Shown piece after piece: positions 17,476 to 45,230 of a DNA stretch of 64,000 nt. Position 1 is the stretch's first letter; the number at the start of each line of letters is the position of its first letter. The stretch is taken from the NCBI GenBank assembly GCA_963965975.1, contig OZ014411.1, positions 14,152,501 to 14,216,500 of the forward strand, given 5' to 3'. Origin of the DNA: Xestospongia bergquistia (Eukaryota; Porifera; Demospongiae; Haplosclerida; Petrosiidae). Made by a program: the position numbers and the translations under genes. The notes under the pieces were generated by a model that was not told the DNA's origin, did not search any database, and saw only the letters and a list, made by a program, of their open reading frames with translations.

Positions 17476-18007
17476 ATTGAGATATTAATTTGCTAGTTTC
17501 TCTGTCACATAGGATATAACTGTTAATTAGAATATATTGATACTAGTGGACATATATGTGTCATTTTTACTTAATTACTAGTTCCCCTGTCCTTGTCCAT
17601 AACATGTGTGTCATGTACTGTAGTTTATTCCACATTTCAATATTTACTAGAGGACATGACTGATGATATTAAATATGAATTCTTTACTACTACAGTGTAA
17701 TTCCATATAATAATAAATATTATTATAATTATATAGGTCCATATAAAACTAGGTACTTTACTAACATAAAGATGATACCAATGAGTAAGTAATCTATTGT
17801 ATTCTCTAATTAATAGTATTATGTATTTTAAATACAATAGAAGTTACAGATTGTAACTATACATTTGTCAGAGGTGGAATATTAAAAGTTTAAAACCTAC
17901 CAAATAAGTAAATTGAACACATCTCTTGTGAAGCTTGTCTGTTGATTTTTTTAATTTTGACAATAGAAAATTTTGACAGAAAACATACATCAAGTTATGG
18001 AAATTGA

Positions 18008-18745
18008 GAAGATGCTCTTGATTTACAAGTACCTGAGACCCAAGCTATTGTATTGTTTGAAGATAATGTTATTATCCAACAACTGAAGAAGTGTATGGAC
18101 CTGATGTTGAGGTAAGGATTAATTAGACTATTACCTTATTTGGGCATATTTTAGATGATAATACAAGAAGCCACTTACTGGTTAGTTAATGTTTGTTACT
18201 ATAGTAACCTGACCACACCTCCTTTAGAACCAGTCATTGCTCCTGTTAAAAAGTGAATTTATTTTCACCAAGAGGAGGAGTTAACATACAAAATAAATTG
18301 AGTTAAACAGGTTTGCAAATAATCTTTAACTTGTCTGACAGGGTTTAGTTGATATAATTGATAGTTTAGAGTTAATACAAAATGTATCTATTATAGGACA
18401 TCATCATCATTACAAGGTAAGTGTTACATGTCAATATGTACATGTTTATATGTTTTGTTTGTTGACAAGTTTTTATTTAGACTCATCTTAATATGTTTGT
18501 AGGAGGAAATAAAAATATGAGTTGTATAATTATATTAATAATTAAAGGAGTTCATCTCATTGTGATTAGTTGAGATATATGGATACACTGTTCACAGTAC
18601 AAGAGGTTAGTATTTCAGATACCACCCCCTCAATAATTAACATGTAAATTCTAGCATGGAGTTAGTATAAAGTGTGTGCCCCTCTCATTAGTTCCACTTG
18701 ATTCTAAAGACAAGTCATGTCTCATCAATGTATATGACAGTCCAG
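18008..18745 (+). pseudogene. Snu114/EFTUD2-like spliceosomal GTPase fossil, copy 1
   Basis: Exon pieces follow the order of the N-terminal and G-domain part of the U5 snRNP GTPase Snu114/EFTUD2, which drives spliceosome activation. At 18,008-18,111: an acidic lead-in, then (after a frameshift) YYPTTEEVYGPDVE. At 18,205-18,252: TPPLEPVIAPVKK. At 18,342-18,416: DIIDSLELIQNVSIIGHHHH, which is the P-loop segment but with the GK of GKT replaced (HYK). At about 18,560-18,605: LRYMDTLFTVQE, preceded by a stop. At 18,655-18,745: GVSIKCVPLSLVPLDSKDKS and INVYDSPG (G3). Exon 5 ends in phase for the GHVNFSDEV exon, which units 2 and 3 keep but this copy has lost. G4, G5 and domains II-V are absent. It is a dead 5' fragment. 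Confidence 0.75.
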
Positions 18746-19974
18746 GTCAGTAGGTGTGGTTATTTATATAATCATGTCATGGTCAATATAATGCTCTCTA
18801 ACTATGTGATGATCTACAATTAATGCTAATATTAATATCAACAGATTAATTATCACTGTATTAATTTGTATTTGCATGTCATAGTCACCTGATGAACATG
18901 TTGTTAGTGTAATAGTCACATGACTTGTCATGACATGTTAATCTATCTATACCCAACCATTTGAATATCATAAAACTTGTAATAATGATTTGGGCTACTG
19001 TTAACAATAAGAAGTTCAACCTTCTGTACTCCATTACCCATTATATGAGCAGTTATATCTAATAAAGAGGAAAAAACCTTATTCAATATGTATAAATGCA
19101 CTTTTCAAACAGAATGATATAAGAGATGTAAACAATGTGATAAAGTAATGAGTTATTGCCTGTTAACAGTATTATGAATAATTAATTAGTAATGTCTGGT
19201 GGGTGGAGCTAATTATTGATGTGGTTTGTTCTAATAAATATAGGAAAAAACTTTATTCAATATGTTCAAGTTTATCTAATTTATTCACTGACCTATATAA
19301 GAGATCTTGTTCATTCAAAATAAAATGGTAAAGTAACCATGAATGGTGGGAAATTATTGCTATTTACATGTAGTTCTATCTTAGTCTCTCAAGGGGATGA
19401 CCTCACTAGACTAGTTCTGCAAAGCAGAATACATCTGTAGACTCTACTGGTAATGCTGGTTTTCATAAGCTAATATACAGGTATAGTTATATTGGTGTCT
19501 GTTGGTATTTTAATATTCTTATCAACTATACATGTACATAGATGTCTCAGTACATGTAGTTAATATATATGTCTTGTACTTCTCTCATTATGTGAGTGGG
19601 TAGTTATAGTTTATCAAGATCTGATCACATGATGTGGCTGTGTCCATTTCTGTAGGGATCATCTGAAGTTGATGTTACTGCTTTGTAAGCAGAGAACAAA
19701 TGTTTTCAAACTAATTTAGAATGAGTCTCTGCACAATGGGAGGGGCATGTCAAATGATTAGAAGGAATATTAAAAGAATATGAAAGTGAAAAAGAACTGT
19801 TAGAAGTCGTACGTTTGGTAGGTGTGGTTAAGATCTTAATCCATTTCATCATTTGTTATGTTCTACTATGAATCCATTTAACATATCATACACCATTAAT
19901 ATACTATACATCCATTAATATACTATACATCCATTCAACATTACATTTGTCCATTTAGCTGTCATATTACTCAG

Positions 19975-20148
19975 TCTATGACAAGACTAACAAAACTAAA
20001 AGAGACAAGAGAGAGACAGAGAGTTCTAGAGGCTAAAGATTCAGTCCTGGGCACCAAGGAATAAGAACTTGTAGAATGTAAAGATCATATCACAGCACAA
20101 GAGAACCAGTTAGCGAAGTATGCTACCATGAAGAATGACCAACATAAT
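19975..20148 (+). pseudogene. Coiled-coil exon, copy 1
   Basis: Between TCAG and GTAAGT one frame encodes a highly charged helix (MTRLTKLKETRERQRVLEAK ... NQLAKYATMKNDQHN) with one in-frame TAA at 20,062-20,064. Heptad-like spacing suggests a coiled coil. Copies 2 (30,138-30,313) and 3 (ending 40,205) keep the same TAA and donor but have a frame-changing replacement in the middle. A second coiled-coil exon at 25,166-25,233 (TLKQLHCEIERLKLENK) may belong to the same lost gene. No family named. Confidence 0.45.
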
Positions 20149-20384
20149 GTAAGTGTGTTGCTAGTAATGATTCATTCCCATGTTTCATTCTGGTTCTATA
20201 AATTTCATTATTTATTCTCATGGTTCAGAACTATCATTCTAATCTTTTCAGGTTATTTTTCAATCTCACATACATCACAAAACATCACTATACTAAAATA
20301 TTAAAATTATATCAAATACTGTAGAGTTCTCTAAGAAATAATAAAGAATTTCAAGTAAAACTGTCTACATTTGAAACAAACCTC

Positions 20385-20745
20385 AATAGGTATATATACA
20401 TATACATATAATATGATAATAAAGGTATGGAAGCTACCCTCAATAAGTAGATGTAATATGTTAGTAATGGTATGGGACTATCCTCAATAGATATACATAT
20501 ATATGTAATCTGATAATGATAGTAGGTGTACATGTATATGTAATACAGTATGGAAACTAGCATCAGTTGGTGCACATATATATTTAATATGGTAATAACA
20601 GTATGGAAGCTGCCCTCAATAGCTATCGAGGGTAGCTTGCATACCATATTACATATACATGTACCTATTGAGGGTAGCATGCATATCAATATTACCATAT
20701 ATACAACATGTACATGTACCTAGGTACACGTACATGTACATGTAA
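20385..20745. repeat. Minisatellite, about 60-bp unit, copy 1
   Basis: Imperfect repeats alternate CCTCAATAGGTACATGTAC-like segments with TAATATGGTAATA-like and GGTATGGAAGCTACC-like segments. One internal pair is inverted (CCTCAATAGCTATCGAGGG at 20,613-20,631), so later units read in the opposite sense. Confidence 0.8.
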
Positions 20746-21096
20746 TTTGCTTATAAAGAAATAATGACAAATTGTAAGTTTAATACAAAGATGTGCACGT
20801 TGAAAAGTAGCTAATTATGTTCCAGTTTTAAATTCCATTTCCCTCTCTTTCATTCTGATAACCTCACTTGTATAGAATGGTTCACAATATATGGCAGAAT
20901 GAAGGCAGCAGCTTCTGCTAAGGGTGGAAAAATCAGAATTCAAACGACTTCCATTTACTTGTTATAGGTAAGTACATATAATACAACTGGTGTGATAATA
21001 TTGTGTCTAGTTTATCTCTTCAGCCATTTGAACATCAATAGCTGTCTCCTTCATATCTATACTACTTTCACTAATTCATAATATATACAAACATTT

Positions 21097-21960
21097 TGTT
21101 ATAGAAAAAGCGGAAACTGCTAAACTGTTTAGTTTGGAAGTTCCTGATAGAATATATTATACCTTTTATTGTATATACACATTGCTTTAAAACTATAGTT
21201 CTTTCTACTAACAACTTGTAGAATGTTAAAAATACTTGTATATTTTGAAGATTTCAATTAGTTGTTAATCAAATCAATTAAAAATCAAATAATGTTGATC
21301 ACGCGTGTACTTGTTTCCCGCCAAATTTGTCACAAGCTTGTGTTGACTGGTTGTCAATTTCAAGCATGACGAGATTTCTTGATATTATATAAGTACTCCA
21401 TTTTGCTTACTTTAATTATAAGGTGAGTTATCTCTCCATCCATCTATCTCACATCTATTCAGCAGTTGTTACAAATAACTCTCTCTTTCTTCCTCTATGT
21501 TCTCTACGATTTGCCTCATCGTTGGATCATCTCGTACTTCGTTGGATCAACTCGTCTCATCGTTGGATAACCTCTCGTCGCTGGATCATCTTTTTCATTT
21601 TAGTTATGTCATTTTTATCTTTTCTTTTTTGTTCTCAAACGTTTTGGTTTTATTTTATAATTTTTGTCAATTGATTTTTTCAATTTTTAAATAAATTTTT
21701 TCCTTTCACTTCGTTTCTACAGGACTCAACTGTTCTTCTCTGACGTCTTCTGATGATCTTGACTGTTCTTCTCTGATGTCTTTTGATGTTCTTGACTGTT
21801 CTTCTCTGATGTCTTCTGATGTTCTTGACTGTTCTTCTCTGACGTCTTCTGATGTTCTTGACGGTTTTTCTCTGATGTCTTCTGATGTTCTTGACTGTTC
21901 TTCTCTGATGTCTTCTGATGTTCTTGACAGTTCTTCTCTGACGTTCTCTGGATGTAAAAG
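21097..21960 (+). repeat. Leader/LTR-like block, array copy 1
   Basis: Homologous to 14,146-14,830 read on the other strand. In order: TGTTATAGAAAA start, ACTGCTAAACTGTTTAG, TTTCCCGCC, a TATA-like box (TTATATAAG, 21,384-21,392), a donor at 21,422 (ATAAG then GTGAGT), a pyrimidine-rich 300-nt intron ending TTTCTACAG at 21,722, then the 33-bp minisatellite. A second copy of the donor block (GAAG then GTGAGC, followed by the same GTTGTTACAA and CTCTCTCTTTC stretch) lies at 22,336-22,432. A 20-nt mini-exon (22,319-22,338) precedes it. Probably the promoter and spliced 5' leader of the gypsy-like family; no coding sequence follows. Confidence 0.6.
21727..21948. repeat. 33-bp minisatellite, copy 1 (about 7 units)
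   Basis: Repeats of CTGTTCTTCTCTGATGTCTT plus CTGATGTTCTTGA. The 33-bp period keeps 11-residue repeats open on both strands (EEQSRTSEDIR on -, VLDCSSLMSSD on +). The frames have no other gene context, so coding is doubtful. Confidence 0.85.
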
Positions 21961-22102
21961 ATGAGTCACTCTCCTGCTAGGTCTCTTCTGTCTTCCTTCA
22001 AGCCTTCTTTCCTTTTCTTTTTTATTTTTATTTTTTAAAATTTTATTTTGGGCTATTCAGTCCATACATCATACACACACTCATACAAATCCTATTAATT
22101 AT

Positions 22103-22173
22103 CTCCTCCCTGCCGCTCGGCAGCCAAAAAAAATTTTTTTTAATATCTCAGGCCGCCGAGTGGCGGGGAGGAG
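22103..22173. other. GC-rich stem-loop, copy 1
   Basis: A 23-nt left arm (22,103-22,125, CTCCTCCCTGCCGCTCGGC...) pairs with 22,151-22,173. There are 20 Watson-Crick pairs, two G-U pairs and one A-C mismatch. The loop is an A-run followed by a T-run. Very GC-rich inside AT-rich flanks. Confidence 0.8.
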
Positions 22174-23167
22174 CTCTGATCTTCTAGGGTGCGTGTGTGT
22201 GTGTGCTGTGTGTGTATGTGTTGTTGGCCCCTTTTCACTTCCTCTGTCTCTCTTCACTTTCTATCCATTCATTGTCTTCACCAGTTCAGTTAATAACTAC
22301 TTTTTTCTTTCCTTGCAGGAGCGGCACTGTTGAAGAAGGTGAGCTATTTTTCCATCCATTCATCTTATTCACTCTTTAGCAATCCAGTTGTTACAACTAA
22401 CTCTCTCTTTCTTTCTCTATGTTCTCTACTTGTGGAGTGACTGGACTCTTGGGGACTTTCAACTACTAAACTGTCTTATTTTTTTGTTTTTTTACTTTTT
22501 TATTGTATTTTTTCATGTTTATAGTTTGTTAGTATGTTGTTTTTAATTTATTATATTGAGCTTCTCCAAAAAAATATTAATTTTTTTACAAAAAATTGTC
22601 AAAAGTCAATTAACTTAATTTCAGCTATACTTTAACTTGATTCTCTAGTCACCAACTGAGTCAGTTAAAAATTCAATTTTGATCTTTACTAAACAACTAC
22701 AATCATACTGAATGAATTCCTATCAATTTTTTTACAACCATTGTATATTACTAATTCTTTAGATCATATTATTATGACTATTTTTTAACCAAAAGCTAAA
22801 TTATTTAATTAATTTTTTTAAATAATTAAATTAAAAACCTGTTAAAAGTGTTTTCCTGTTCTTGCAAACTTTTTGCTGAACACGTGTGCAGCTGTTATGT
22901 TTTCCCGCCATAATGTCATATTTTCCCGCCATAATGATAGGTCACGCGTTTGCTGTTCCTCGCTAGTCGTGTGCTGATAATCTAGTAATAGATTATCTGC
23001 AGACCTTCTTTGATTGAACTCTTCACCAATTAAAATTTTAATTTCTGTTTCAACGTTAATTTTTAATTAAGTTTTTTCAGGTAATTATTTTTTTATTCTT
23101 GCTTTTAATCATTAAAATAAATGTTTATTCGCCATTTAACTTGTTTGTTGTATTTTACAATGTTCAG

Positions 23168-23286
23168 TACTCTCACAAGATATCAACAAACTGGATGAGA
23201 TCAATAGAGATCAGAGAGACTGCATAATCACTGTCAACTTCCAACTCAAAGATCTTCCTCTCTGTATATTAAGTGTTACTACTTGA
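23168..23286 (+). CDS. Conserved terminal exon, copy 1
   Basis: After TGTTCAG one frame encodes 39 residues (LSQDINKLDEINRDQRDC ... NFQLKDLPLCILSVTT) to TGA at 23,284-23,286. An AATAAA at 23,374-23,379 gives a plausible poly(A) site. The frame is intact in all three units, with only one residue changed in unit 3. It is the 3' end of a gene whose upstream exons I could not define; the leader block at 21.1-22.4 kb on the same strand may be its promoter. Family unknown. Confidence 0.4.
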
Positions 23287-24130
23287 TGATATATACTAGT
23301 ATAATGCAGTAACATGTCTAAATAACAAATATACAATTTTATTTATGGTAAATATAAAAATGTAAAGTTTGGCAATAAAACAGTTTTAATTGGAATTGTA
23401 TTAAGTGATACATTTAAACTACAGACAGTGTTGGGCACTTGTGGTTAAAGAGTGCAGTTTATGGTCAATGGAATTGGGTGTGGCCAAATGATGTTGTACT
23501 TGACTGGTTGGTATTGGTGATAAAAAAAATGTCTCGACTTGATGATACACACAACATGTCTTCTAGACAAAATGTACCAGTACTGTCTGGACAGTGGTAG
23601 GATTGTCACCAATGTCATGAGAATAAATACAACGAGTCATAATGTTACAATCAATACTATAGTCACATGATGACATAGAAGACACTGGAAAGTATTGAGT
23701 GTTGAGATGATCAGTTAATATATTTTGAGTTAATACATGTCTTATTACAGCCACTTACAAGATAACAAGAGTTTTCTGTTAGATGACATATACAGTGAGG
23801 TCCACAAACCTGCGTAGCATAATAATTAACTAGAACTCCACCTACTATTTATGAGTATTATTAAATAGTTATATAATTTGTGACAATCAATAGATACTGG
23901 TATCAATGGAGTGTCCTGATAGTACATTTTGTCACAACAATTTTATTGACTTTGTAGTCATAACATATGTTTATACTGTCACTATTATTTTCATTCAATA
24001 GTCATCTCTGCATTAATAATTTTTTTCAAACAAAATCAATGGGACCAGTCTACATGAAATATTAATAATACACAAAGCTTTGGTCTTCAAAGAATAATCC
24101 AATAATTACTCTTTAAATTTTGGATTACCT

Positions 24131-24469
24131 TTATTCCATTCCAGTGTCCTCAACATTACTATGATCACCATGACAAGCATACCTCCAAGGATGAGTCTCT
24201 GCATAAGTTTTATATCGTATTGTCTCACATACATAAGGAATTAACTTATTCTGCTGTAGTATACACAAATATCACTTTAATGAATTTGGGTTGACTTTCT
24301 TTGTCGACACTTTAGCAGCAGTAGCTCCAAGTTCACCAGATACCACAGTCTGACTTATTGTCTCCCAGAACTGATCAATACAGGAGATATGTTTGAAGAT
24401 CAACCATTTGCCTAATGTTGGTCCTCTGGCATTGCAGTGAGCTGGACCATTGACATAAATCCAGTAATA
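24131..24469 (-). pseudogene. DUF1917/BLES03-like exons, copy 1
   Basis: Two - strand segments. 24,469-24,272 encodes YWIYVNGPAHCNARGPTLGK, WLIF, a DQFWETISQ helix and GELGATAAKVSTKKV. 24,250-24,131, after a CTACAGCAG acceptor, encodes LIPYVCETIRYKTYAETHPW ... and stops. The GKW-hydrophobic, W..I...V..G.LG..AKVST and YKT.A.T pattern resembles the DUF1917 (UPF0696, C11orf68/BLES03) family of unknown function. Upstream, EDPQG lies one frame off YYWIY, and no phase-matching donor joins the two exons, so it is probably a pseudogene or lacks an exon. Family call is from memory of the motif and moderate. Confidence 0.45.
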
Positions 24470-24975
24470 CCCTGAGGATCTTCATTAAAGTAGGCGGGCC
24501 TTTACTTTTTAACTCCTTTCTAATTGTCCCTGTGTCAGTATGCGTAAGAAGCAGCGTTGAAAGACAATTTATAAGTTTAATACAAAGATGAACAGGTCTG
24601 AAAGTGGCTTGATTGTGTTCCTATTTTAAATTCCATTTCCCTCTCTTTCATTCAAATGCTTCACTTCTACAAAATGTTGTAAGTTATTATTAATTAACCA
24701 CCTTGTTACTATGACAACTGTTGCTGTAGTAACCCTATCTCTAGGCTCATTATTTAATAGGAGCTGTAGCATAGTCCTTTACATCTACAATATCTACTCC
24801 AGTAACAGAGAATGGAGCTGCTAATAGAAGAGTAATACACTGTATGTACATGTACATGTATATCATTACATGTAACCAACTATAGCCATTAATGAGTGAA
24901 TTGTTTATATATAATAATTATTACTGGCTATACAGTAGTAATAGTTAGATGCTGTGTATAAAAGTGCCAGTAATT

Positions 24976-25077
24976 GAATGCCATACTTTAATGTGAAATT
25001 AGTACATTTAGGTTCCAATGTTTAAGGTTTAGGGTCTGGAGTATATAATATTAATTTCACATTAAAGTATGACGTTC
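24976..25077. repeat. Long perfect inverted repeat, copy 1
   Basis: ATACTTTAATGTGAAATTA (24,983-25,001) is exactly repeated in inverse at 25,052-25,070; weaker pairing extends each arm to about 26 bp. A small foldback (MITE-like) element is possible. Copy 2 is at 34,847-34,948. Unit 3 keeps only the right arm. Confidence 0.85.
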
Positions 25078-25960
25078 TACTACCAGTACTCTAGACACTG
25101 CCATAATTATATGTCATTGTAAATATAACATTGATTTTTACTCTGTTCTTGTTTCATGATCATAGAACTCAACATAGTGATACTCTCAAACAACTACACT
25201 GTGAAATTGAGAGACTTAAATTAGAGAACAAAGGTAATGTTACTGTATTCCATTATGTATGTGATATTGATGTCTTTGTTTAGAGTTAAATTTTAAACTA
25301 ATCATGTGCTGATGTGGTCAAACACAATCAAATTAAATTACTAGTTATTGAATGTATTTTACATGTAACTGGGTCAATGTAGATTGTGACTACCCACATT
25401 TGTATATACATACTTTAGATTGAGTTCTCTTATTATTATAGACTTTTCAGACTAAGTCTTTTCTATAGCTACAAAGAGTAGACAGAGTTATATTGAACTG
25501 CTTTTACTCGGCAAACACAGCACTGATAGCCACCAAACTATTGTGGACGGTAGAAAAATTTCTGTACTCCTTAAGAATACTGCCAAAAGGAGCGTCAAAC
25601 GAACAAAAAGCTTTAAAAGTCTGAAAAACCTTTGAAAAAAGCACAGCTTTCAGTGAAGACTCGAGAATTCACGAAAAACCTCCTGCATATAGGTTATGAC
25701 ACTTTCTAAATTTAAAAGAAAACTTTAAAGAATTAGCTTATCAATTTAGACAGGACATTTCAAGTGATGACTTACCTGGTAAATGGCTAATTATAGAATG
25801 TACATATAAATTATATTAACTATTTATTAACTATATATTAACTATTTATTAACTATATATTAACTTGGTAGCATGTTAGGCCTGGGCAGATTATTCCCAA
25901 ATTTTAACCCATTATTCTATTCCCTTATTCCTAGTAAACTATCCTATTATTCCCTTATAC

Positions 25961-26927
25961 CAGGAGCGCATGAGCGTCAAACTGCCATTATATTTGTATT
26001 CTAACCATTGTCGTAACATGGTTAGGGGATTATTCCATATAAGGAAAATACACTTAAGTAACATAAGTACTGTTAAGTACGTGACGGAGCAATGAATATT
26101 ATTACAATCATCAATGGTGAGTAAAATGAAAAAACTAAAAAAGAAAGAAGTTATGTACATCGAGAAACGTTTAAAAGAATTAGACTTGTAGGTTATGGAG
26201 GCTTTTGTCATTAAAGAGGTGGAAACAGTTGAACAACATATCTCTTTATTCACCTGTGTTATTAAAACCTCCTTTTCCTATTAAGGTTAATATTATCTGA
26301 TATTATAGCATTATTAATACAATGAACAATTACTACTTCTTTCGGTTGCATGGCTTATGTTTCAAATCATGTTTTCATATAAAGAGTGGTGCATTTCTAT
26401 AATCTCCACGGTGATGCCTCAGCTTGCCATGAACACTTCCTCTAGTTATAACTGCACCTCTGGCAATTCAGTGATGATAATTGACCTGAGGTGGCGTGCT
26501 TCACCTGGCTAAAGAAAGTCTCAACTGCGCTACCATTGAGACCTACTGAATATATATTGTGTACTCAGGGTGGGCAGAAGTGAAATCAGCACATAAGTTC
26601 TTAAAGCCATACTACATGAGCCGAGTAAGTCCCAGGTTTGCCAGCAGTAACCCTGAAATGTCCCGTTTGTTCAGCCATTCGTGGGTCCATTGAGCCGCTG
26701 TTTTCGTGTAGCAGTGGCTTCCGTGTCTTCAGAAGGTCGCTTCTCTAAAATTTTATATATTTAAAGCACACCTAACTAAAATGTTACAGCCCAGAAGCTA
26801 TTAAAATGCAAAACACTTTGCAGTTATGTCTATATATGGACATATGTTCTAAGCCTTGATTCGACAACAGTTGGTTAAGGGAGTTTGACGCTCCTTCTCG
26901 TCGCTTCACGAGGCTCATGCGCTCCTG
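25961..26927. mobile_element. 967-bp non-autonomous DNA transposon, copy 1
   Basis: Ends are perfect inverted repeats CAGGAGCGCATGAG / CTCATGCGCTCCTG, flanked by direct repeats CTTATAC (25,954-25,960 and 26,928-26,934). The inverted similarity resumes with GCGTCAAACT after a 22-bp insertion on the right side. CAG ends and a 7-bp (possibly eroded 8-bp) duplication suggest a hAT-like element. No transposase is encoded. The GGAGCGTCAAAC motif recurs outside the element at 25,590. Confidence 0.75.
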
Positions 26928-27387
26928 CTTATACATAGCTAGTATTACCAATTATTCTCAATAATTATGATGTGTTCACATTTTCTATTAAGAGGTAGAA
27001 AAATACAAAATTATCTGTTAAACTATGACATTAAGGAGGCTTCCACATAATCACAGAGAGAAGCATCTTACATGTTGCAGAAAGTGTTATTTAGTAAAGA
27101 GAAGCAGATATTAAAATGGAATCTGAATCCATCCAGTAGCCACTCTCATCCATTTCTGTTAGTCTACATGACGAACATGTGTTAGCTCATGTGATTAATT
27201 AAACTGCCTACCCAGTAGGCCAGTGGCCCAGTACCCACCTATTTGAAAATATGAAAATTCCTAAGTCTAGTGTATATATATATGGACATAACTGAGAGTG
27301 TATGAGATTTCAGCTTCATGTCAGACCCCTTGATTCCACATTATAAATCTAATTTACATATTTACATTATTTTAATTACTATTATAG

Positions 27388-27518
27388 TGAGGATGATGTA
27401 GTTGTTCCCTCACTATCACATTATGATGATTTTACTGAACAAGTTAAAAAAGAGATGATGTTTGATTTTGAAGCGAGTAAAATTATGAAATTCCAACAAA
27501 ATTTTGTATTATATAGTG
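27388..27518 (+). pseudogene. Exon of unrecognised gene, copy 1
   Basis: From a TTATAG acceptor to a GGTACA donor, 43 open codons read EDDVVVPSLSHYDDFTEQ ... KKEMMFDFEASKIMKFQQ. Acidic then helical; no family is recognised. Copy 2 is at 37,259-37,389; unit 3 lacks it. Confidence 0.35.
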
Positions 27519-28077
27519 GTACAGTATAATGTTATTATTTCACAATGATAGTCTTCTTAAATCTACATACAAATTATAATTGAATAATTTGCTGTATTAG
27601 TAGATATTGATATTTCAGGTAAACCATGTGTCATTTTTACTTAATTACTAGTTCCCCTGTCCTTGTCCATAACATGTGTGTCATTTACTGTAGTTTATTC
27701 CACATTTCAATATTTACTAGAGGACATGACTGATGATATTAAATATGAATTCTTTACTACTACAGTGTAATTCCATATAATAATAAATATTATTATAATT
27801 ATATAGGTCCATATAAAACTAGGTACTTTACTAACATAAAGATGATACCAATGAGTAAGTAATCTATTGTATTCTCTAATTAATAGTATAATGTATTTTA
27901 AATACAATAGAAGTTACAGATTGTAACTATACATTTGTCAGAGGTGGAATATTAAAAGTTTAAAACCTACCAAATAAGTAAATTGAACACATCTCTTGTG
28001 AAGCTTGTCTGTTGATTTTTTTAATTTTGACAATAGAAAATTTTGACAGAAAACGTACATCAAGTTATAGAAATTGA

Positions 28078-29058
28078 GAAGATGCTCTTGATTTACAAGT
28101 ACCTGAGACCCAAGCTATTGTATTGTTTGAAGATAATGTTATTATCCAACAACTGAAGAAGTGTATGGACCTGATGTTGAGGTAAGGATTAATTAGACCA
28201 TTACCTTATTTGGGTATATTTTAGATGATAATACAAAAAGCCACTTATTGGTTAGTTTATATTTGTTACTATAGTAACCTGACCACACCTCCTTTAGAAC
28301 CAGTCATTGCTCCTGTTAAAAAGTGAATTTTTTTACCAAGAGGAGGAGTTAACATGTAGTAACAACATACAAAATAAATTGAGTTAAACAGGTTTGCAAA
28401 TAATCTTTAACTTGTCTGACAGGTTTTAGTTGATATAATTGATAGTCCAGAGTTAATACAAAATGTGTCTATTATAGGACATCATCATCATTACAAGGTA
28501 AGTGTTACATGTCAATATGTACATGTTTATATGTTTTGTTTGTTGATAACTTTTTATTTAATTGAACAGACTCATCTTAATATGTTTGTAGGATGAAATA
28601 AAAATATGAGTTGTATAATTATATTAATAATTAAAGGAGTTCATCTCATTGTGATTAGTTGAGATATATGGATACACTGTTCACAGTACAAGAGGTTAGT
28701 ATTTCAGATACCACCCCATCAATAATTGACATCTTAATTCTAGCATGGAGTTAGTATAAAGTGTGTGCCCCTCTCATTAGTTCCACTTGATTCTAAAGAC
28801 AAGTCATGTCTCATCAATGTATATGACACTCCAGGTCAGTAGGTGTGGCTATTTATATAATCATGTCATGGTCAATATAATGCTCTCTAACTATGTGATG
28901 ATCTATAATTAATGCTAATATTAATATCAACAGATTAATTATCACTGTATTAATTTGTATTTTCATGTCATAGTCACCTGATGAACATGTTGTTAATGTA
29001 ATAGTCACATGACTTGTGATTTATAGGTCATGTGAACTTTTCTGATGAGGTGAAGCAG
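28078..29058 (+). pseudogene. Snu114/EFTUD2-like fossil, copy 2
   Basis: Same exons as copy 1 at 28,078-28,181, 28,275-28,322, 28,423-28,497, about 28,650-28,694 and 28,744-28,834. It is better preserved: DIIDSPELIQNVSIIGHHHH keeps the Pro expected in the NPEL/SPEL motif, and G3 reads VYDTPG. A sixth exon (29,027-29,058) after a TTATAG acceptor reads GHVNFSDEVKQ and joins G3 in phase, giving DTPGHVNFSDEV, the hallmark of this GTPase. The YYPTTEEV frameshift and degenerate P-loop are shared with copy 1, so decay began before duplication. Confidence 0.8.
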
Positions 29059-31830: not shown

Positions 31831-31972
31831 TGAGTCACTCTCCTGCTTGGTCTCTTCTGTCTTCCTTCAAGCCTTCTTTCCTCTTCTTTTTTTATTTTTA
31901 TTTTTTTAAATTTTATTTTGGGCTATTCAGTCCATACATCATACACACACTCATACAAACCCTATTAATTAT

Positions 31973-33038: not shown

Positions 33039-33157
33039 TACTCTCACAAGATATCAACAAACTGGATGAGATCAATAGAGATCAGAGAGACTGCATAATC
33101 ACTGTCAACTTCCAACTCAAAGATCTTCCTCTCTGTATATTAAGTGTTACTACTTGA
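33039..33157 (+). CDS. Conserved terminal exon, copy 2
   Basis: Identical to copy 1 by eye, including the downstream AATAAA. Confidence 0.4.
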
Positions 33158-34001
33158 TGATATATACTAGTATAATGCAGTAACATGTCTAAATAACAAA
33201 TATACAATTTTATTTATGGTAAATATAAAAATGTAAAGTTTGGCAATAAAACAGTTTTAATTGGAATTGTATTAAGTGATACATTTAAACTACAGACAGT
33301 GTTGGGCACTTGTGGTTAAAGAGTGCAGTTTATGGTCAATGGAATTGGGTGTGGCCAAATGATGTTGTACTTGACTGGTTGGTATTGGTGATAAAAAAAA
33401 TGTCTCGACTTGATGATACACACAACATGTCTTCTAGACAAAATGTACCAGTACTGTCTGGACAGTGGTAGGATTGTCACCAATGTCATGAGAATAAATA
33501 CAACGAGTCATAATGTTACAATCAATACTATAGTCACATGATGACATAGAAGACACTGGAAAGTATTGAGTGTTGAGATGATCAGTTAATATATTTTGAG
33601 TTAATACATGTCTTATTACAGCCACTTACAAGATAACAAGAGTTTTCTGTTAGATGACATATACAGTGAGGTCCACAAACCTGCGTAGCATAATAATTAA
33701 CTAGAACTCCACCTACTATTTATGAGTATTATTAAATAGTTATATAATTTGTGACAATCAATAGATACTGGTATCAATGGAGTGTCCTGATAGTACATTT
33801 TGTCACAACAATTTTATTGACTTTGTAGTCATAACATATGTTTATACTGTCACTATTATTTTCATTCAATAGTCATCTCTGCATTAATAATTTTTTTCAA
33901 ACAAAATCAATGGGACCAGTCTACATGAAATATTAATAATACACAAAGCTTTGGTCTTCAAAGAATAATCCAATAATTACTCTTTAAATTTTGGATTACC
34001 T

Positions 34002-34340
34002 TTATTCCATTCCAGTGTCCTCAACATTACTATGATCACCATGACAAGCATACCTCCAAGGATGAGTCTCTGCATAAGTTTTATATCGTATTGTCTCACA
34101 TACATAAGGAATTAACTTATTCTGCTGTAGTATACACAAATATCACTTTAATGAATTTGGGTTGACTTTCTTTGTCGACACTTTAGCAGCAGTAGCTCCA
34201 AGTTCACCAGATACCACAGTCTGACTTATTGTCTCCCAGAACTGATCAATACAGGAGATATGTTTGAAGATCAACCATTTGCCTAATGTTGGTCCTCTGG
34301 CATTGCAGTGAGCTGGACCATTGACATAAATCCAGTAATA
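34002..34340 (-). pseudogene. DUF1917/BLES03-like exons, copy 2
   Basis: Equivalent of copy 1 at an offset of 9,871 with no difference seen. Confidence 0.45.
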
Positions 34341-34846
34341 CCCTGAGGATCTTCATTAAAGTAGGCGGGCCTTTACTTTTTAACTCCTTTCTAATTGTCC
34401 CTGTGTCAGTATGCGTAAGAAGCAGCGTTGAAAGACAATTTATAAGTTTAATACAAAGATGAACAGGTCTGAAAGTGGCTTGATTGTGTTCCTATTTTAA
34501 ATTCCATTTCCCTCTCTTTCATTCAAATGCTTCACTTCTACAAAATGTTGTAAGTTATTATTAATTAACCACCTTGTTACTATGACAACTGTTGCTGTAG
34601 TAACCCTATCTCTAGGCTCATTATTTAATAGGAGCTGTAGCATAGTCCTTTACATCTACAATATCTACTCCAGTAACAGAGAATGGAGCTGCTAATAGAA
34701 GAGTAATACACTGTATGTACATGTACATGTATATCATTACATGTAACCAACTATAGCCATTAATGAGTGAATTGTTTATATATAATAATTATTACTGGCT
34801 ATACAGTAGTAATAGTTAGATGCTGTGTATAAAAGTGCCAGTAATT

Positions 34847-34948
34847 GAATGCCATACTTTAATGTGAAATTAGTACATTTAGGTTCCAATGTTTAAGGTT
34901 TAGGGTCTGGAGTATATAATATTAATTTCACATTAAAGTATGACGTTC
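34847..34948. repeat. Long perfect inverted repeat, copy 2
   Basis: The same 19-bp perfect arms as at 24,983-25,070. Confidence 0.85.
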
Positions 34949-35831
34949 TACTACCAGTACTCTAGACACTGCCATAATTATATGTCATTGTAAATATAAC
35001 ATTGATTTTTACTCTGTTCTTGTTTCATGATCATAGAACTCAACATAGTGATACTCTCAAACAACTACACTGTGAAATTGAGAGACTTAAATTAGAGAAC
35101 AAAGGTAATGTTACTGTATTCCATTATGTATGTGATATTGATGTCTTTGTTTAGAGTTAAATTTTAAACTAATCATGTGCTGATGTGGTCAAACACAATC
35201 AAATTAAATTACTAGTTATTGAATGTATTTTACATGTAACTGGGTCAATGTAGATTGTGACTACCCACATTTGTATATACATACTTTAGATTGAGTTCTC
35301 TTATTATTATAGACTTTTCAGACTAAGTCTTTTCTATAGCTACAAAGAGTAGACAGAGTTATATTGAACTGCTTTTACTCGGCAAACACAGCACTGATAG
35401 CCACCAAACTATTGTGGACGGTAGAAAAATTTCTGTACTCCTTAAGAATACTGCCAAAAGGAGCGTCAAACGAACAAAAAGCTTTAAAAGTCTGAAAAAC
35501 CTTTGAAAAAAGCACAGCTTTCAGTGAAGACTCGAGAATTCACGAAAAACCTCCTGCATATAGGTTATGACACTTTCTAAATTTAAAAGAAAACTTTAAA
35601 GAATTAGCTTATCAATTTAGACAGGACATTTCAAGTGATGACTTACCTGGTAAATGGCTAATTATAGAATGTACATATAAATTATATTAACTATTTATTA
35701 ACTATATATTAACTATTTATTAACTATATATTAACTTGGTAGCATGTTAGGCCTGGGCAGATTATTCCCAAATTTTAACCCATTATTCTATTCCCTTATT
35801 CCTAGTAAACTATCCTATTATTCCCTTATAC

Positions 35832-36798
35832 CAGGAGCGCATGAGCGTCAAACTGCCATTATATTTGTATTCTAACCATTGTCGTAACATGGTTAGGGGA
35901 TTATTCCATATAAGGAAAATACACTTAAGTAACATAAGTACTGTTAAGTACGTGACGGAGCAATGAATATTATTACAATCATCAATGATGAGTAAAATGA
36001 AAAAACTAAAAAAGAAAGAAGTTATGTACATCGAGAAACGTTTAAAAGAATTAGACTTGTAGGTTATGGAGGCTTTTGTCATTAAAGAGGTGGAAACAGT
36101 TGAACAACATATCTCTTTATTCACCTGTGTTATTAAAACCTCCTTTTCCTATTAAGGTTAATATTATCTGATATTATAGCATTATTAATACAATGAACAA
36201 TTACTACTTCTTTCGGTTGCATGGCTTATGTTTCAAATCATGTTTTCATATAAAGAGTGGTGCATTTCTATAATCTCCACGGTGATGCCTCAGCTTGCCA
36301 TGAACACTTCCTCTAGTTATAACTGCACCTCTGGCAATTCAGTGATGATAATTGACCTGAGGTGGCGTGCTTCACCTGGCTAAAGAAAGTCTCAACTGCG
36401 CTACCATTGAGACCTACTGAATATATATTGTGTACTCAGGGTGGGCAGAAGTGAAATCAGCACATAAGTTCTTAAAGCCATACTACATGAGCCGAGTAAG
36501 TCCCAGGTTTGCCAGCAGTAACCCTGAAATGTCCCGTTTGTTCAGCCATTCGTGGGTCCATTGAGCCGCTGTTTTCGTGTAGCAGTGGCTTCCGTGTCTT
36601 CAGAAGGTCGCTTCTCTAAAAGTTTATATATTTAAAGCACACCTAACTAAAATGTTACAGCCCAGAAGCTATTAAAATGCAAAACACTTTGCAGTTATGT
36701 CTATATATGGACATATGTTCTAAGCCTTGATTCGACAACAGTTGGTTAAGGGAGTTTGACGCTCCTTCTCGTCGCTTCACGAGGCTCATGCGCTCCTG
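35832..36798. mobile_element. 967-bp non-autonomous DNA transposon, copy 2
   Basis: Same insertion site and same flanking CTTATAC duplications as copy 1. It was therefore copied with the array unit, not by a second transposition. Confidence 0.75.
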
Positions 36799-37258
36799 CT
36801 TATACATAGCTAGTATTACCAATTATTCTCAATAATTATGATGTGTTCACATTTTCTATTAAGAGGTAGAAAAATACAAAATTATCTGTTAAACTATGAC
36901 ATTAAGGAGGCTTCCACATAATCACAGAGAGAAGCATCTTACATGTTGCAGAAAGTGTTATTTAGTAAAGAGAAGCAGATATTAAAATGGAATCTGAATC
37001 CATCCAGTAGCCACTCTCATCCATTTCTGTTAGTCTACATGACGAACATGTGTTAGCTCATGTGATTAATTAAACTGCCTACCCAGTAGGCCAGTGGCCC
37101 AGTACCCACCTATTTGAAAATATGAAAATTCCTAAGTCTAGTGTATATATATATGGACATAACTGAGAGTGTATGAGATTTCAGCTTCATGTCAGACCCC
37201 TTGATTCCACATTATAAATCTAATTTACATATTTACATTATTTTAATTACTATTATAG

Positions 37259-37389
37259 TGAGGATGATGTAGTTGTTCCCTCACTATCACATTATGATGA
37301 TTTTACTGAACAAGTTAAAAAAGAGATGATGTTTGATTTTGAAGCGAGTAAAATTATGAAATTCCAACAAAATTTTGTATTATATAGTG
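37259..37389 (+). pseudogene. Exon of unrecognised gene, copy 2
   Basis: Identical by eye to 27,388-27,518. Confidence 0.35.
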
Positions 37390-37948
37390 GTACAGTATAA
37401 TGTTATTATTTCACAATGATAGTCTTCTTAAATCTACATACAAATTATAATTGAATAATTTGCTGTATTAGTAGATATTGATATTTCAGGTAAACCATGT
37501 GTCATTTTTACTTAATTACTAGTTCCCCTGTCCTTGTCCATAACATGTGTGTCATTTACTGTAGTTTATTCCACATTTCAATATTTACTAGAGGACATGA
37601 CTGATGATATTAAATATGAATTCTTTACTACTACAGTGTAATTCCATATAATAATAAATATTATTATAATTATATAGGTCCATATAAAACTAGGTACTTT
37701 ACTAACATAAAGATGATACCAATGAGTAAGTAATCTATTGTATTCTCTAATTAATAGTATAATGTATTTTAAATACAATAGAAGTTACAGATTGTAACTA
37801 TACATTTGTCAGAGGTGGAATATTAAAAGTTTAAAACCTACCAAATAAGTAAATTGAACACATCTCTTGTGAAGCTTGTCTGTTGATTTTTTTAATTTTG
37901 ACAATAGAAAATTTTGACAGAAAACGTACATCAAGTTATAGAAATTGA

Positions 37949-38929
37949 GAAGATGCTCTTGATTTACAAGTACCTGAGACCCAAGCTATTGTATTGTTTG
38001 AAGATAATGTTATTATCCAACAACTGAAGAAGTGTATGGACCTGATGTTGAGGTAAGGATTAATTAGACCATTACCTTATTTGGGTATATTTTAGATGAT
38101 AATACAAAAAGCCACTTATTGGTTAGTTTATATTTGTTACTATAGTAACCTGACCACACCTCCTTTAGAACCAGTCATTGCTCCTGTTAAAAAGTGAATT
38201 TTTTTACCAAGAGGAGGAGTTAACATGTAGTAACAACATACAAAATAAATTGAGTTAAACAGGTTTGCAAATAATCTTTAACTTGTCTGACAGGTTTTAG
38301 TTGATATAATTGATAGTCCAGAGTTAATACAAAATGTGTCTATTATAGGACATCATCATCATTACAAGGTAAGTGTTACATGTCAATATGTACATGTTTA
38401 TATGTTTTGTTTGTTGATAACTTTTTATTTAATTGAACAGACTCATCTTAATATGTTTGTAGGATGAAATAAAAATATGAGTTGTATAATTATATTAATA
38501 ATTAAAGGAGTTCATCTCATTGTGATTAGTTGAGATATATGGATACACTGTTCACAGTACAAGAGGTTAGTATTTCAGATACCACCCCATCAATAATTGA
38601 CATCTTAATTCTAGCATGGAGTTAGTATAAAGTGTGTGCCCCTCTCATTAGTTCCACTTGATTCTAAAGACAAGTCATGTCTCATCAATGTATATGACAC
38701 TCCAGGTCAGTAGGTGTGGCTATTTATATAATCATGTCATGGTCAATATAATGCTCTCTAACTATGTGATGATCTATAATTAATGCTAATATTAATATCA
38801 ACAGATTAATTATCACTGTATTAATTTGTATTTTCATGTCATAGTCACCTGATGAACATGTTGTTAATGTAATAGTCACATGACTTGTGATTTATAGGTC
38901 ATGTGAACTTTTCTGATGAGGTGAAGCAG
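37949..38929 (+). pseudogene. Snu114/EFTUD2-like fossil, copy 3
   Basis: Base-for-base equivalent of copy 2 at an offset of 9,871: exons 37,949-38,052, 38,146-38,193, 38,294-38,368, 38,615-38,705 and 38,898-38,929. No difference from copy 2 was seen by eye, which is part of the evidence for recent exchange between units 2 and 3. Confidence 0.8.
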
Positions 38930-40009
38930 GTTATCATCTCTGAAGTAGTAGTCACATGACTTGTCATGACATGTCAATCTATCTATACCCGACCTTTTGA
39001 ATATCATAAAACTTGTAATAATGATTTGGGCTACTGTTAACAATAAAAAGTTTAACCTTCTGTGCTCCATTACCCATTATATGATCAATTATATCTAATA
39101 AAGAGGAAAAAACCTTATTCAATATGTATAAATGTACTTTTCAAACAGAATGATATAGGAGATGTAAACAATGTGATAAAGTAATGAGTTATTGCCTGTT
39201 AACAGTATTATGAATAATTAATTAGTAATGTCTGGTGGGTGGAGCTAATTATTGATGTGTTTGTTCTAATAAATATAGGAAAAAACTTTATTCAATATGT
39301 TCAAGTTTATCTAATTTATTCACTGACCTATATAAGAGATCTTGTTCATTCAAAATAAAATGGTAAAGTAACCATGAATGGTGGGAAATTATTGCTATTT
39401 ACATGTAGTTCTATCTTGGTCTCTCAAGGGGATGACCTCACTAGACTAGTTCTGCAAAGCAGAATACATCTGTAGACTCTACTGGTAATGCTGGTTTTCA
39501 TAAGCTAATATACAGGTATAGTTATATTGGTGTCTGTTGGTATTTTAATATTTTTATCAACTATACATGTACATCGATGTCTCAATACATGTAGTTAATA
39601 TATATGTCTTGTACTTCTCTCATTATGTGAGTGGGTAGTTATAGTTTATCAAGATCTGGTCACATGGTCTGGCTGCGTCATTTCTGTAGGGATTATCTGA
39701 AGTTGATGTTGTTGCTTTGTAAGAGGAGAACAAATATTTTCAAACTAATTTAGAATGAGTCTCTGCACAATGGGAGGGCCACGTCAAATGATTAGAAGGA
39801 AAATTAAAACAATATGAAAGTGGAAAGGAACTGTTAGAAATCATAAGTTTGGTGGGTGTGGTTAAAGTCTTAATCCATTTCATCATTTGTTATGTTCTAC
39901 TATGAATCCATTTAACAAATCATACATCCATTCAACATACCATACATCCATTTAACATACTATACATCCATTCAACATTACATTTGTCCATTTTGTTGTC
40001 ATCTGACCC

Positions 40010-40205
40010 AGCCTATGGTCCATCTCACATCTATTCTGAGACTAACAGAACTAAAAGAGACAATAAAAAATTATATTCTGTTCTAGAGCCTAAAGACTCA
40101 GTCCTGGGCACCAAGGAATGAGAACTCGTAGAATGTAAAGATCATATCACAGCACTAGAGAACCAGTTAGTGAAGTATGCTACCATGAAGAATGACCAAT
40201 ATAAG
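40010..40205 (+). pseudogene. Coiled-coil exon, copy 3
   Basis: Aligns with copy 2, including the AATAAAAAATTATATT variant, but its 5' edge carries an extra insertion (CATCTCACATCTATTC) that breaks the acceptor context. Confidence 0.4.
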
Positions 40206-40439
40206 GTAAGTGTGTTGCTAGTAATGATTCATTCCCATGTTTCATTCTGGTTCTCTAAATTTCATTATTTGATTCTCATGGTTCAGAACTATCGTTCTAA
40301 TCTTTTCAGGTTATTTTCTATCTCACATACATCACAAACAAACACATCACTTACTAAAATAGAAAAAATTATATCAAAATGTTGTAGAGTTCTCTAAGAA
40401 ATAATAAAGAATTTCAAGAGAAACTGTCTACATTTGAAC

Positions 40440-40815
40440 CAAACCTCAATAGGTATATATAATATGGTAATAAAGGTATTGAAGCTACCCTCAATAAGTA
40501 CATGTACTTGTACATGTAATATGGTAGTAATGGTATGGGACTATCCTCAATAGATATACATAATCTGGTAATGATAGTATACAAGCTATCCTCAATAGGT
40601 GTACATGTACATGTATATGTAATACAGTATGGAAACTAGCCTCAGTAGGTGCACATGTACATTTAATATGGTAATAACGGTATGGAAGCTGCCCTCAATA
40701 GCTATCGAGGGTAGCTTACATACCATATTACATATACATGTACCTATTGAGGGTAGCTTGCATATCAATATTACCATATATACAATATGTACATGTACCT
40801 AGGTACATGTACATG
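40440..40815. repeat. Minisatellite, about 60-bp unit, copy 3
   Basis: Similar length to copy 1, including the inverted junction CAATAGCTATCGAGGGTAGC at 40,698-40,717. Confidence 0.8.
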
Positions 40816-41161
40816 TAATTTGCTTATAAAGAAAGAAAAATTGTATGTTTAATACAAAGATGAACAGTTTTAAAGGTAGCTAATTATGTTCCGGTTTTAA
40901 ATTCTATTTTCCTTTCTTTCATTCTGATAACCTCACTTGTACAGAATGGTTCACAATATTATGAATTAATGAAAGTAGTGTAGATATGAAGGAGACAGCT
41001 ATGTTCAAATGTTCTAATGGCTGAAGAGATAAATTAGACACACAATATTATCACACCAATTGTATTATATGTACTTATCTATGACAATTAAATGGAAGTC
41101 ATTTTAATTCTCATTTTTTTCCACCTTTAGCAGAAGCTGCTGCCTTCTTTCTGCCATATAT

Positions 41162-41987
41162 TGATATAGAAAATGCTGAAACCACTAAACTGTTTAGTTT
41201 GGAAGTTTCTGACAGAATATATTATACCTTTAATTGTATATACACATTGCTTTAAAACTATATCTCTTTCTACTAATAACTTGTAGAATGTTAAAAGTAC
41301 TTGTATATTTGAAGATTTCAATTAGTTGTTAATCAAATCAATTAAAAATCAATTAATGTTGATCACGCGTGTACTTGTTTCCCGCCAAATTTGTCACAAG
41401 CTTGTGTTGACTGGTTGTCAATTTGAAGCATGACGAGATTTCTTGATAATATAAAAGTACTCCATTTCGCTTACTTTATTATAAGGTGAGTTATCTCTCC
41501 ATCCATCTATCTCACATCTATCCAGCAGTTGTTACAAATAACTCTCTCTTTCTTCCTCTATGTTCTCTACGATTCGCCTCATCGTTGGATCATCTCGTAC
41601 TTCGTTGGATCAACTCGTCTCATCGTTGGATAACCTCTCGTCGCTGGATCATCTTTTTCATTTTAGTTATGTCATCTTTATCTTTTCTTTTTTGTTCTCA
41701 AACTTTTTAGTTTTATTTTATAATTTTTGTCAATTGATTTTTTGAATTTTTAAATAAATTTTTCCTTTCACTTCGTTTCTACAGGACTCAACTGTTCTTC
41801 TCTGGCGTTCTCTGATGTTCTTGACTGCTCTTCTCTGATGTCTTCTGATGATCTTGACTGTTCTTCTCTGATGTCTTCTGATGATCTTGACTGTTCTTCT
41901 CTGATGTCTTCTGATGTTCTTGACCGTTCTTCTCTGATGTCTTCTGATGTACTTGACGGTTCTTCTCTGACGTTCTCTGGATGTAAA
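41162..41987 (+). repeat. Leader/LTR-like block, array copy 3
   Basis: Same order of elements with TTTCCCGCC intact and TATA-like ATAATATAAAAG. Its upstream neighbour is the inverted 200-bp segment described in the findings. Confidence 0.6.
41786..41971. repeat. 33-bp minisatellite, copy 3 (about 5.5 units)
   Basis: The same unit with its own pattern of variants (several GATGATCTTGA units). Confidence 0.85.
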
Positions 41988-42131
41988 AGATGAGTCGCTC
42001 TCCTGCTTGGTCTCTTCTGTCTTCCTTCAAGCCTTCTTTCCTCTTCTTTTTTTTTTTTTATTTTTTAAAATTTTATTTTGGGCTATCAGCCCATACATCA
42101 TACACACACTCATACAAACCCTATTAATTAT

Positions 42132-42203
42132 CTCCTCCCTGCCGCTCGGCGGCCCAAAAAAATTTTTTTTTAATATCTCGGGCCGCCGAGTGGCGGGGAG
42201 GAG
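42132..42203. other. GC-rich stem-loop, copy 3
   Basis: As copy 2, with one more pair at the loop end (GGCCC facing GGGCC). Confidence 0.8.
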
Positions 42204-43240
42204 CTCTGATCTTCTAGGGTGCGTGTGTGTGTGTGCTGTGTGTGTATGTGTTGGTGGTCCCTTTTCACTTCCTCTGTCTCTCTTCACTTTCTCTCTATTC
42301 ATTGTCTTCACCAGTTCAGTTAATAACTACTTTTTCTTTCCTTGCAGGAGCAGCACTGTTGAAGAAGGTGAGCTATTTCTCTATCCATCCATCTCATTCA
42401 CTCTTTAGCAAACCAGTTGTTACAACTAACTTCTCTTTCTTTCTCTATGTTCTCTACTTGTGGAGTTACTGGACTCTTGGGGACTTTCAACTACTAAAAC
42501 TGTCTTATTTTAAGTTTTGTTTTTTTTTCTTTTTAATTGTATTTTTTCATGTTTGTAGTTTGTTAGTATGTTGTTTTTAGTTTATTATATTGAGCTTCTC
42601 CAAAAAAATATTAATTTTTTTACTAAAATTTGTCAAATGTCAATTACCTTAATTTCAGTTAAAATATAACTTGATTAACTTTAGAGAACCACCAACTTAG
42701 AACTTTTGATTCTAGATTTAATGTAACTTTGAAAACTGAATCAATTTTAATCTTTACTAAACAACTACAATCATACTGAATGAATTCTTATCAATTTTTT
42801 TACAACCATTGTATCATGATATTACTAATTCTTTAGATGATATTATCATTAATATTTTTTAACCAAAAGCTAAATTATTTAATTAATTTTTTTAATAATT
42901 AAATTAAAAACCTATTAAAAGTGTTTTGCTGTTCTTGTAAGCTTTTTGCTGAACACGTGTGCAGCTGTTATGTTTTCCCGCCATAATGTCATATTTTTCC
43001 CGCCATAATGATAGGTCATGCGTATGCTGTTCCTCGCTAGTCGTGTGCTGATAATCTAGTAATAGATTCTCTGCAGACCTTCTTTGATTGAACTCTTCAC
43101 CAATTGAAATTTTAATTTCTGTTTCAGCGTTATTTTTAATTAAGCTTTTTCAGGTAATTATTTTTTTATTCTTGCTTTTAATCATTAAAATAAATATTTA
43201 TTTATCATTTAACTTGTTTGTTGCATTTTACAAAGTTCAG

Positions 43241-43359
43241 TACTCTCACAAGATATCAACAAACTGGATGAGATCAATAGAGATCAGAGAGACTGCATAA
43301 TCACTGTCAACTTCCAACTCAAAGATCTTACTCTCTGTATATTAAGTGTTACTACTTGA
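43241..43359 (+). CDS. Conserved terminal exon, copy 3
   Basis: The same exon with LKDLT in place of LKDLP. Frame, stop and poly(A) signal are kept although flanking non-coding DNA has diverged with indels. This favours selection or recent activity. Confidence 0.4.
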
Positions 43360-44198
43360 TGTATATACTAGTATAATGCAGTAACATGTCTAAATAACAA
43401 ATATACAATTTTATTTATGGTAAATATAAAAATGTAAAGTTTGGCAATAAAACAGTTTTATTTGGAATTGTATTAAAATACATTTTAAAGTACAGAGTGT
43501 TGAGCATTTGTGGTTAAAGAGTGCAGTTTATGGTCAATGGAATTGGGTGTGGCCAAATGATGTTTTACTTGACTGGTTGTGATAAAACAAATGTCTCGAC
43601 CTGATGATACACACAACATGTCTTCTAGACAAAATGTACCAGTACTGTCTGGACAGTGGTAGGATTGTCACCATTGTGATGAGAATAAATACAATGAGTT
43701 ATAATGTTACAATCAGTACTATAGTCACATGATGACATAGAGGACACTGGAAAGTATTGATTGTTGAGATGATCAGTTAATATAGTGGAGTTACTACATG
43801 TCTTATTACAGCCACTTACAAGATAACAAGAGTTTTCTGTTAGATGACATATTCAGTGAGGACCACCAACCATATATGGTGCATAGCATAATAATTAACT
43901 AGAACTCCACCTACTATTTATGAGAATTATTAATAGTTATATATTTTTGACAATCAATAGATACTGGTATCAATGGAGTGTCCTGATAGTACATTTTGTC
44001 ACAACAATTTTATTGACTTTGTAGTCATAACATATGTTTATACTGTCACTACTATTTTCATTCAATAGTCATCTCTGCATTAATAATTTTTTTTCAAACA
44101 AAATCAATAGGACCAGTCTATATGAAATATTAATAATACACAAAGCTTTGGTCTTCAAAGAATAATCCAATAATTACTCTTTAAATTTTGGATTACCT

Positions 44199-44531
44199 TT
44201 ATTCCATTCCAGTGTCCTCGACGTTACTCTACAAATCACCATAACAAGCATACCTCCAAGCATGAGTCTCTGCATAAGTTTTATATCATATTGTCTCACA
44301 TACGTAAGGAATTAACTTATTCTGCTGTAGTATACACAAATATCATTTTAATGAGTTTAAGTTGACTTTCTTTGTCGACACTTTAGCGGCAGTAGCTCCA
44401 AGTTCACCAGATACGGCAGTTTGACTTATTGTCTCCCAGAACTGATCAATACAGGAGATATGTTTGAATATCAACCATTTGCCTAATGTTGGTCCTCTGG
44501 CATTGCAGTGAGCTGGACCATTGACATAATA
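44199..44531 (-). pseudogene. DUF1917/BLES03-like exons, copy 3
   Basis: Exons 44,531-44,343 and 44,321-44,199. Both frames stay open despite a 9-bp deletion removing WIY after GYY and a 3-bp insertion in the second exon. Indels that are multiples of three hint at past constraint on the frame. Confidence 0.45.
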
Positions 44532-45230
44532 CCCTGGGGATCTTCATTAAAGTAGGCGGGTCTTTACTTTTTAACTCCTTTTTTAATTGTCCCATGTGTA
44601 AGAAGCAGCGTTAAAAGACAATTTATAAGTTTAATACAAAGATGAACAGGTCTGAAAGTGGCTTGATTATGTTCCTATTTTAAATTCCATTTCCCTTTCT
44701 TTCATTCAAATACTTCACTTCTACAGAATGTTGTAAGTTATTATTAATTAACCACCTTGTTACTATGACAACTGTTGCTGTAGTAACCCTATCTCTAGGC
44801 TCATTATTCAATAGGAGCTGTAGCATAGTCCTTTACATCTATGATATCTACTCCAGTAACAGAGAATGAAGCTGCTAATAGAAGAGTAATACACTGTATG
44901 TACATGTACATGTATATCATTACATGTAACCAACTATAGCCATTAATGAGAGGTTCCAATATTTGAAGGTTTAGGGTCTGGAGTATATAATATTAATTTC
45001 ACATTAAAGTATGATGTTCTATTACCAGCACTCTAGACACTGCCATAATTATATGTCATTGTAAATATAACATTGATTTTTACTCTGTTCTTGTTTCATG
45101 ATCATTGAACTCAACATAATGATACTCTCAAACAACTACACTGTGAAATTGAGAGACTTAAATTAAGGTAATGTTACTGTATTCCATTATGTATGTGATG
45201 ATGATGTCTTTGTTCAGAGTTAAATTTTAA

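Follow-up and report, generated by a model that had tools for sequence, protein, structure and literature searches.

Lepore-type globin fusions are hybrid tandem-gene units that result from unequal crossing-over. The middle unit of the direct tandem array described here is built likewise: it combines the left part of one unit with the right part of a different one. In a simple crossover hybrid, parental sequence flanks a single switch point on both sides, whereas this unit contains a 2.3-kb middle that matches neither parent. As in the concerted evolution of tandem arrays, near-identical tracts are common to units within the array; however, homogenization is patchy here, and other parts of the units are up to several percent apart. 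For interlocus conversion in human segmental duplications, a survey gives a mean length of 6.26 kbp, with the top 10% of tracts above 14.4 kbp (PMC10172114). The survey likewise describes kilobase-scale tracts between diverged duplicates, and the mean is near the 7.6 kb found here. The human survey compared many haplotypes, whereas we used one assembly and inferred donor and recipient from the tract edges.

The window, a stretch of 64,000 bases of Xestospongia bergquistia DNA (C1:14,152,501-14,216,500), lies within a 146.46-Mb assembly of 21 contigs and contains no N. Self-BLAST and a three-way alignment revealed three direct tandem copies of about 10 kb each, and each of these contains a 33-base minisatellite. 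Positions are those of the window unless a contig is named.

17,556-27,625, forward strand: unit 1, 10,070 bases
27,626-37,496, forward strand: unit 2, the hybrid, 9,871 bases
37,497-45,230, forward strand: unit 3, to the point where similarity to units 1 and 2 ends
21,729-21,941: 33-base minisatellite in unit 1
31,697-31,813: 33-base minisatellite in unit 2
41,791-41,970: 33-base minisatellite in unit 3

The 55 bases to the left of 17,556 are unlike the bases that precede the starts of units 2 and 3, and the copy number of the minisatellite differs among the three units. A 536-base repeat (3,494-4,029 and 49,421-49,956, 90.5% identical) flanks the array on both sides. Further direct repeats, forming a second set that is more diverged (86-92% alike), occupy 50,193-55,123 and have a 26-base tandem repeat among them (53,689-53,845).

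Two copies of a near-identical tract, each of which crosses a unit boundary, are present in the array.

22,126-29,703, forward strand: tract copy 1 (probable donor), made up of the right part of unit 1 and the left part of unit 2
31,997-39,574, forward strand: tract copy 2 (probable recipient), made up of the right part of unit 2 and the left part of unit 3
29,704-31,996, forward strand: mosaic middle of unit 2 (2.3 kb), identical to neither neighbour

The tract copies are 7,578 bases long, are offset throughout by 9,871 bases and differ at three sites (26,117, 26,751 and 29,682). The tract is contiguous and sharp-edged, and it is found amid otherwise diverged paralogues; in units 1 and 2, the minisatellite sits 184-185 bases to the left of its left edge. 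This single tract accounts both for the match between the right parts of units 1 and 2 and for the match between the left parts of units 2 and 3. Unit 2 appears to be a hybrid because its left part lies in one tract copy and its right part in the other.

The initial annotation, made from the letters of this DNA, had described a direct repeat of about 7.5 kb around a 2.3-kb mosaic, and both the block and its mosaic middle are real. The almost perfect match it gave for the left part of unit 2 (27,626-29,690 against 37,497-39,561) contains one difference, at 29,682, and the two substitutions it noticed between the right parts of units 1 and 2 were found at 26,117/35,988 and 26,751/36,622. Its block coordinates hold except for a one-base slip: with the offset of 9,871, the partner of 22,145 is 32,016, not 32,015. 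The other pairings are more different, as it had said, but its figure of several percent is too high for the left parts of units 1 and 2, which are nearer 2% apart by substitutions.

We read unit-to-unit identity in windows of 250 columns. The left parts of units 1 and 2 have 96.8-99.6% identity per window, with 38 substitutions and 100 gap columns up to 29,690. For the right parts of units 2 and 3 the range is 88.6-98.5%, and the differences total 131 substitutions and 218 gap columns. Units 1 and 3 range from 88.3 to 99.6%, with the exception of one window at about 54%, which is low because a local inversion in unit 3, found by self-BLAST and in the genome search, misaligns.

40,956-41,163, reverse strand: 208-base piece of unit 3 in the opposite orientation to that of units 1 and 2

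Among the matches listed, five copies on C7 have this 208-base piece in the same orientation as unit 3. The common orientation hints at exchange, or at shared ancestry, between the chromosomes.

The middle of unit 2 was aligned with the inverted piece of unit 3 turned round, which gave 2,238 ungapped columns. Unit 2 agrees with unit 1 only at 117 sites and with unit 3 only at 37; a further 23 sites are private to unit 2 and four are three-state. Of the 33 indel events, 18 are in the unit 1 state, nine are in the unit 3 state and six are private. The 154 unit 1-like and unit 3-like sites cluster, forming 38 runs where 57.2 are expected (0 of 10,000 shuffles gave as few). When the middle is cut into 100-base pieces, the best match switches among members of the family, with some pieces at 99-100%. 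In the genome-wide search, no near-identical full-length donor for the middle was listed among the best 40 of 332 candidates, and the family copies compared piece by piece did not include one either; within the 40, the best other single-row match has 90% identity, and unit 1 matches the middle in three pieces at 94-97%. The divergence of the middle from units 1 and 3 is at the ordinary level of paralogues, with private sites.

According to the initial annotation, one unequal crossover between two diverged units, A-B, had given A-(B left/A right)-B, exactly the pattern seen. Recent ectopic recombination of misaligned neighbours and the polarity described are supported: the left part of the hybrid matches the downstream unit and the right part the upstream unit, as a single crossover predicts. 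The single crossover between A and B is not. It predicts identity over the whole period, and identity covers 7,578 of the 9,871 bases. It also predicts one switch point with parental identity on both sides and a middle that is identical to A or to B on either side of the breakpoint; the middle is much further from both neighbours than the flanks are. The best single breakpoint in the middle leaves 63 substitutions unexplained in 2,238 columns, whereas the flanks have 3 in 7,578 bases, which gives an odds ratio of 73 (Fisher P about 4e-37).

Interlocus gene conversion predicts a contiguous, sharp-edged tract within diverged paralogues, and such a tract is found here. The simplest reading, to which we give a probability of roughly 0.6, combines three units of greater age with a single gene-conversion tract of 7.6 kb, which crosses a unit boundary and has the junction of units 1 and 2 as its probable donor. 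Three diverged units would already have been standing in the array before the event. One ectopic, non-crossover and presumably non-reciprocal gene conversion would then have copied the contiguous tract, unit boundary included, to the position one unit along, and the middle of unit 2 would be the unconverted remnant of the old unit. As an untouched piece of the old unit, the middle would require no donor.

We compared the sequences past the right tract edge with outgroup copies in windows of 200 bases, using a limited panel. Past this edge, unit 2 is 95-98% identical to the C1:14.62 and C1:16.28 Mb arrays over 1,000 bases and 90-92% identical thereafter. The corresponding values are 92-99% for unit 1 and 86-95% for unit 3, to which the C7 copy is the closest in two windows, at 200 and at 400 bases. 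At this one edge, and with this limited panel, outgroup affinity is continuous in units 2 and 1 and shifts in unit 3, which makes unit 3 look like the recipient. No clear affinity signal to the outgroup copies was found at the left edge. The affinities weakly suggest the junction of units 1 and 2 as the donor and that of units 2 and 3 as the recipient.

Units 1 and 2 also share an insertion that resembles a DNA transposon; the copy in unit 2 was recognized by alignment and in the genome search.

25,961-26,927, no strand assigned: 967-base DNA-transposon-like insertion in unit 1, bounded by inverted ends and by a 7-base target duplication
35,832-36,798, no strand assigned: matching insertion in unit 2, at the corresponding site

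The insertion site is empty in all three of the other copies compared, each time with the 7-base overlap of the target duplication, and unit 3 stops short of the site. Related copies of the 967-base element occur elsewhere in the genome. Most simply, the insertion happened once and was then copied along with the tract. Of the three sites at which the tract copies differ, two fall inside the insertion, and a conversion leaves both of them unexplained.

Three other explanations were weighed. Unit 2 may have arisen through unequal crossing-over of two units, with its middle overwritten later by at least one conversion, or the crossover may have joined homologues that already differed in their middles; a crossover followed by conversion of the middle leads to the same final sequence as a single conversion. 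The expected polarity (unit 3 on the left, unit 1 on the right), the short-scale mosaicism of the middle and a sister array that holds an alignment longer than its period (see below) all fit such a history. We nevertheless think it unlikely, since it calls for two or more events in place of a single one and a near-identical donor for the middle is not among the matches listed (best 40 of 332); a plain crossover moreover leaves the 63 substitutions in the middle unaccounted for.

That the assembly is at fault, with a haplotype switch or a mis-threaded repeat having placed one 7.6-kb sequence twice, is a possibility that the initial annotation had raised and that we consider unlikely. The middle joins a unit 3-type left part to a unit 1-type right part and is near-identical to neither neighbour, so that a single haplotype switch would probably not produce it by itself. 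Assemblers can fail at near-identical direct repeats of 7.6 kb, and the family has many tracts of this kind; on the other side, the window is without N, and a further near-identical copy of the locus is not among the matches listed (best 40 candidates per search). Similarity through chance or through selection on the sequence has next to no probability, given 3 differences in 7,578 bases, sharp tract edges, an insertion that units 1 and 2 have in common at one site, and little coding signal in the sequence. One conversion tract across a unit boundary is the reading that we prefer.

Six-frame Pfam scans covered 17,601-27,400 and found two exon-sized matches in unit 1, both with counterparts in unit 2.

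24,281-24,418, reverse strand: Bles03-like exon-sized stretch in unit 1 (PF08939, E 2.7e-6, above the curated cut-off)
34,152-34,289: Bles03-like exon-sized stretch in unit 2, the same as in unit 1
25,164-25,232, forward strand: CCDC92-like exon-sized stretch in unit 1 (PF14916, E 3.6e-4, below the curated cut-off)
35,035-35,103: CCDC92-like exon-sized stretch in unit 2, the same as in unit 1

Bles03-like matches number at least 40 genome-wide and are repeated across arrays. The stretch is without an internal stop in units 1 and 2 and has one stop in unit 3. In units 1 and 2 the CCDC92-like stretch is open, as it is at four C11 loci (L030, L031, L037 and L039; since L039 overlaps L031, these are not all separate). 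An in-frame stop interrupts it in unit 3 and in three further C1 copies (14.08, 12.81 and 12.88 Mb), and the C1:16.28 and C1:14.62 Mb stretches gave no match to it. In windows of 60 bases, identity to other copies, those on C7 and C11 among them, is rather uniform along the unit; the few short stretches that are better conserved include 23,256-23,375 and the Bles03-like stretch. A codon-substitution scan of unit 1 was noisy, with many of its top rows on the minisatellite, and Rfam gave no match at its gathering thresholds. A mucin-like Pfam match just above the cut-off falls on the 33-base minisatellite and was discarded as spurious. Judged by these profile matches, the units hold putative Bles03-like and CCDC92-like exon-sized pieces, and we claim no full gene model.

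Outside the array, the window contains two death-domain exons upstream (2,081-3,480, above the cut-off). A Transposase_21 match (8,052-8,492, above the cut-off) and an integrase-like match (12,072-12,461, below the cut-off) are probably mobile-element fragments. The large reading frames downstream (55,298-63,002) have ankyrin-like and UvrD-helicase-like matches, all below the curated cut-offs.

Among the matches listed, related sequence is found on C1 (10.65-16.37 Mb), C7 and C11, with pieces on C4, C9 and C12. One region, C1:16270001-16390000 (L009-L020), is an array of some nine units that belong to this family. An all-against-all comparison covered nine stretches, namely the window and eight others built from L009-L026 and L029-L033. 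It did not include L001-L008 (overlapping or elsewhere), L027-L028 (the flanks of the window) or L034-L039, which are short. Tract pairs were defined as at least 1 kb long with less than one difference per 400 bases. The nine stretches contain 30 such pairs, 28 of them in the C1:16.28-16.37 Mb array and one each in the window and the C1:14.62 Mb array; many of the 30 share sequence and are not independent events. None of the 30 joins different arrays. The tract is shorter than its own offset in all 30 pairs, a result towards which the definition is biased, as it fragments older duplications into short tracts. The longest tract, in the C1:16.28-16.37 Mb array, has 17,169 bases, 3 differences and an offset of 61,064.

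The C1:16.28 Mb array also contains a 14.5-kb alignment at 99.1% identity with an offset of 10.8 kb. Since this alignment is longer than the period of the array, crossovers probably occur in the family; duplication of units by unequal exchange would then happen here as well, which counts against the conversion reading of the window.

For 10 of the 30 pairs, the tract edges (20 in all) were placed on the coordinates of unit 1. Four edges have no unit 1 position within 400 bases and three lie 35-199 bases past the unit start; the other mapped edges are scattered. An edge at 24,889-24,892 repeats in three pairs, and edges at 17,741 and 22,703 each repeat in two, in pairs that have array sequence in common. 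The edges of the window tract (22,126, and 19,517 in unit 1 coordinates) are not repeated among the 10 mapped pairs. We claim no general hotspot for edges.

The locus offers a clean worked case of an apparent crossover hybrid for which a conversion tract across a unit boundary is the better reading, and the unconverted middle is what distinguishes conversion from crossover here. Patching by recombination is a known process and belongs to the ordinary evolution of tandem repeats. A broader idea, which we put forward tentatively and consider rather doubtful, is that the dispersed family of units of about 10 kb, which is found on at least C1, C7 and C11 and has the Bles03-like and CCDC92-like exon pieces, is homogenized within arrays by unusually long tracts (up to 17 kb, more than a whole unit), and that this keeps the open exon versions of units 1 and 2 alike while copies next to them decay. 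If reads confirm the array, the family would be a useful place for measuring long conversion tracts.
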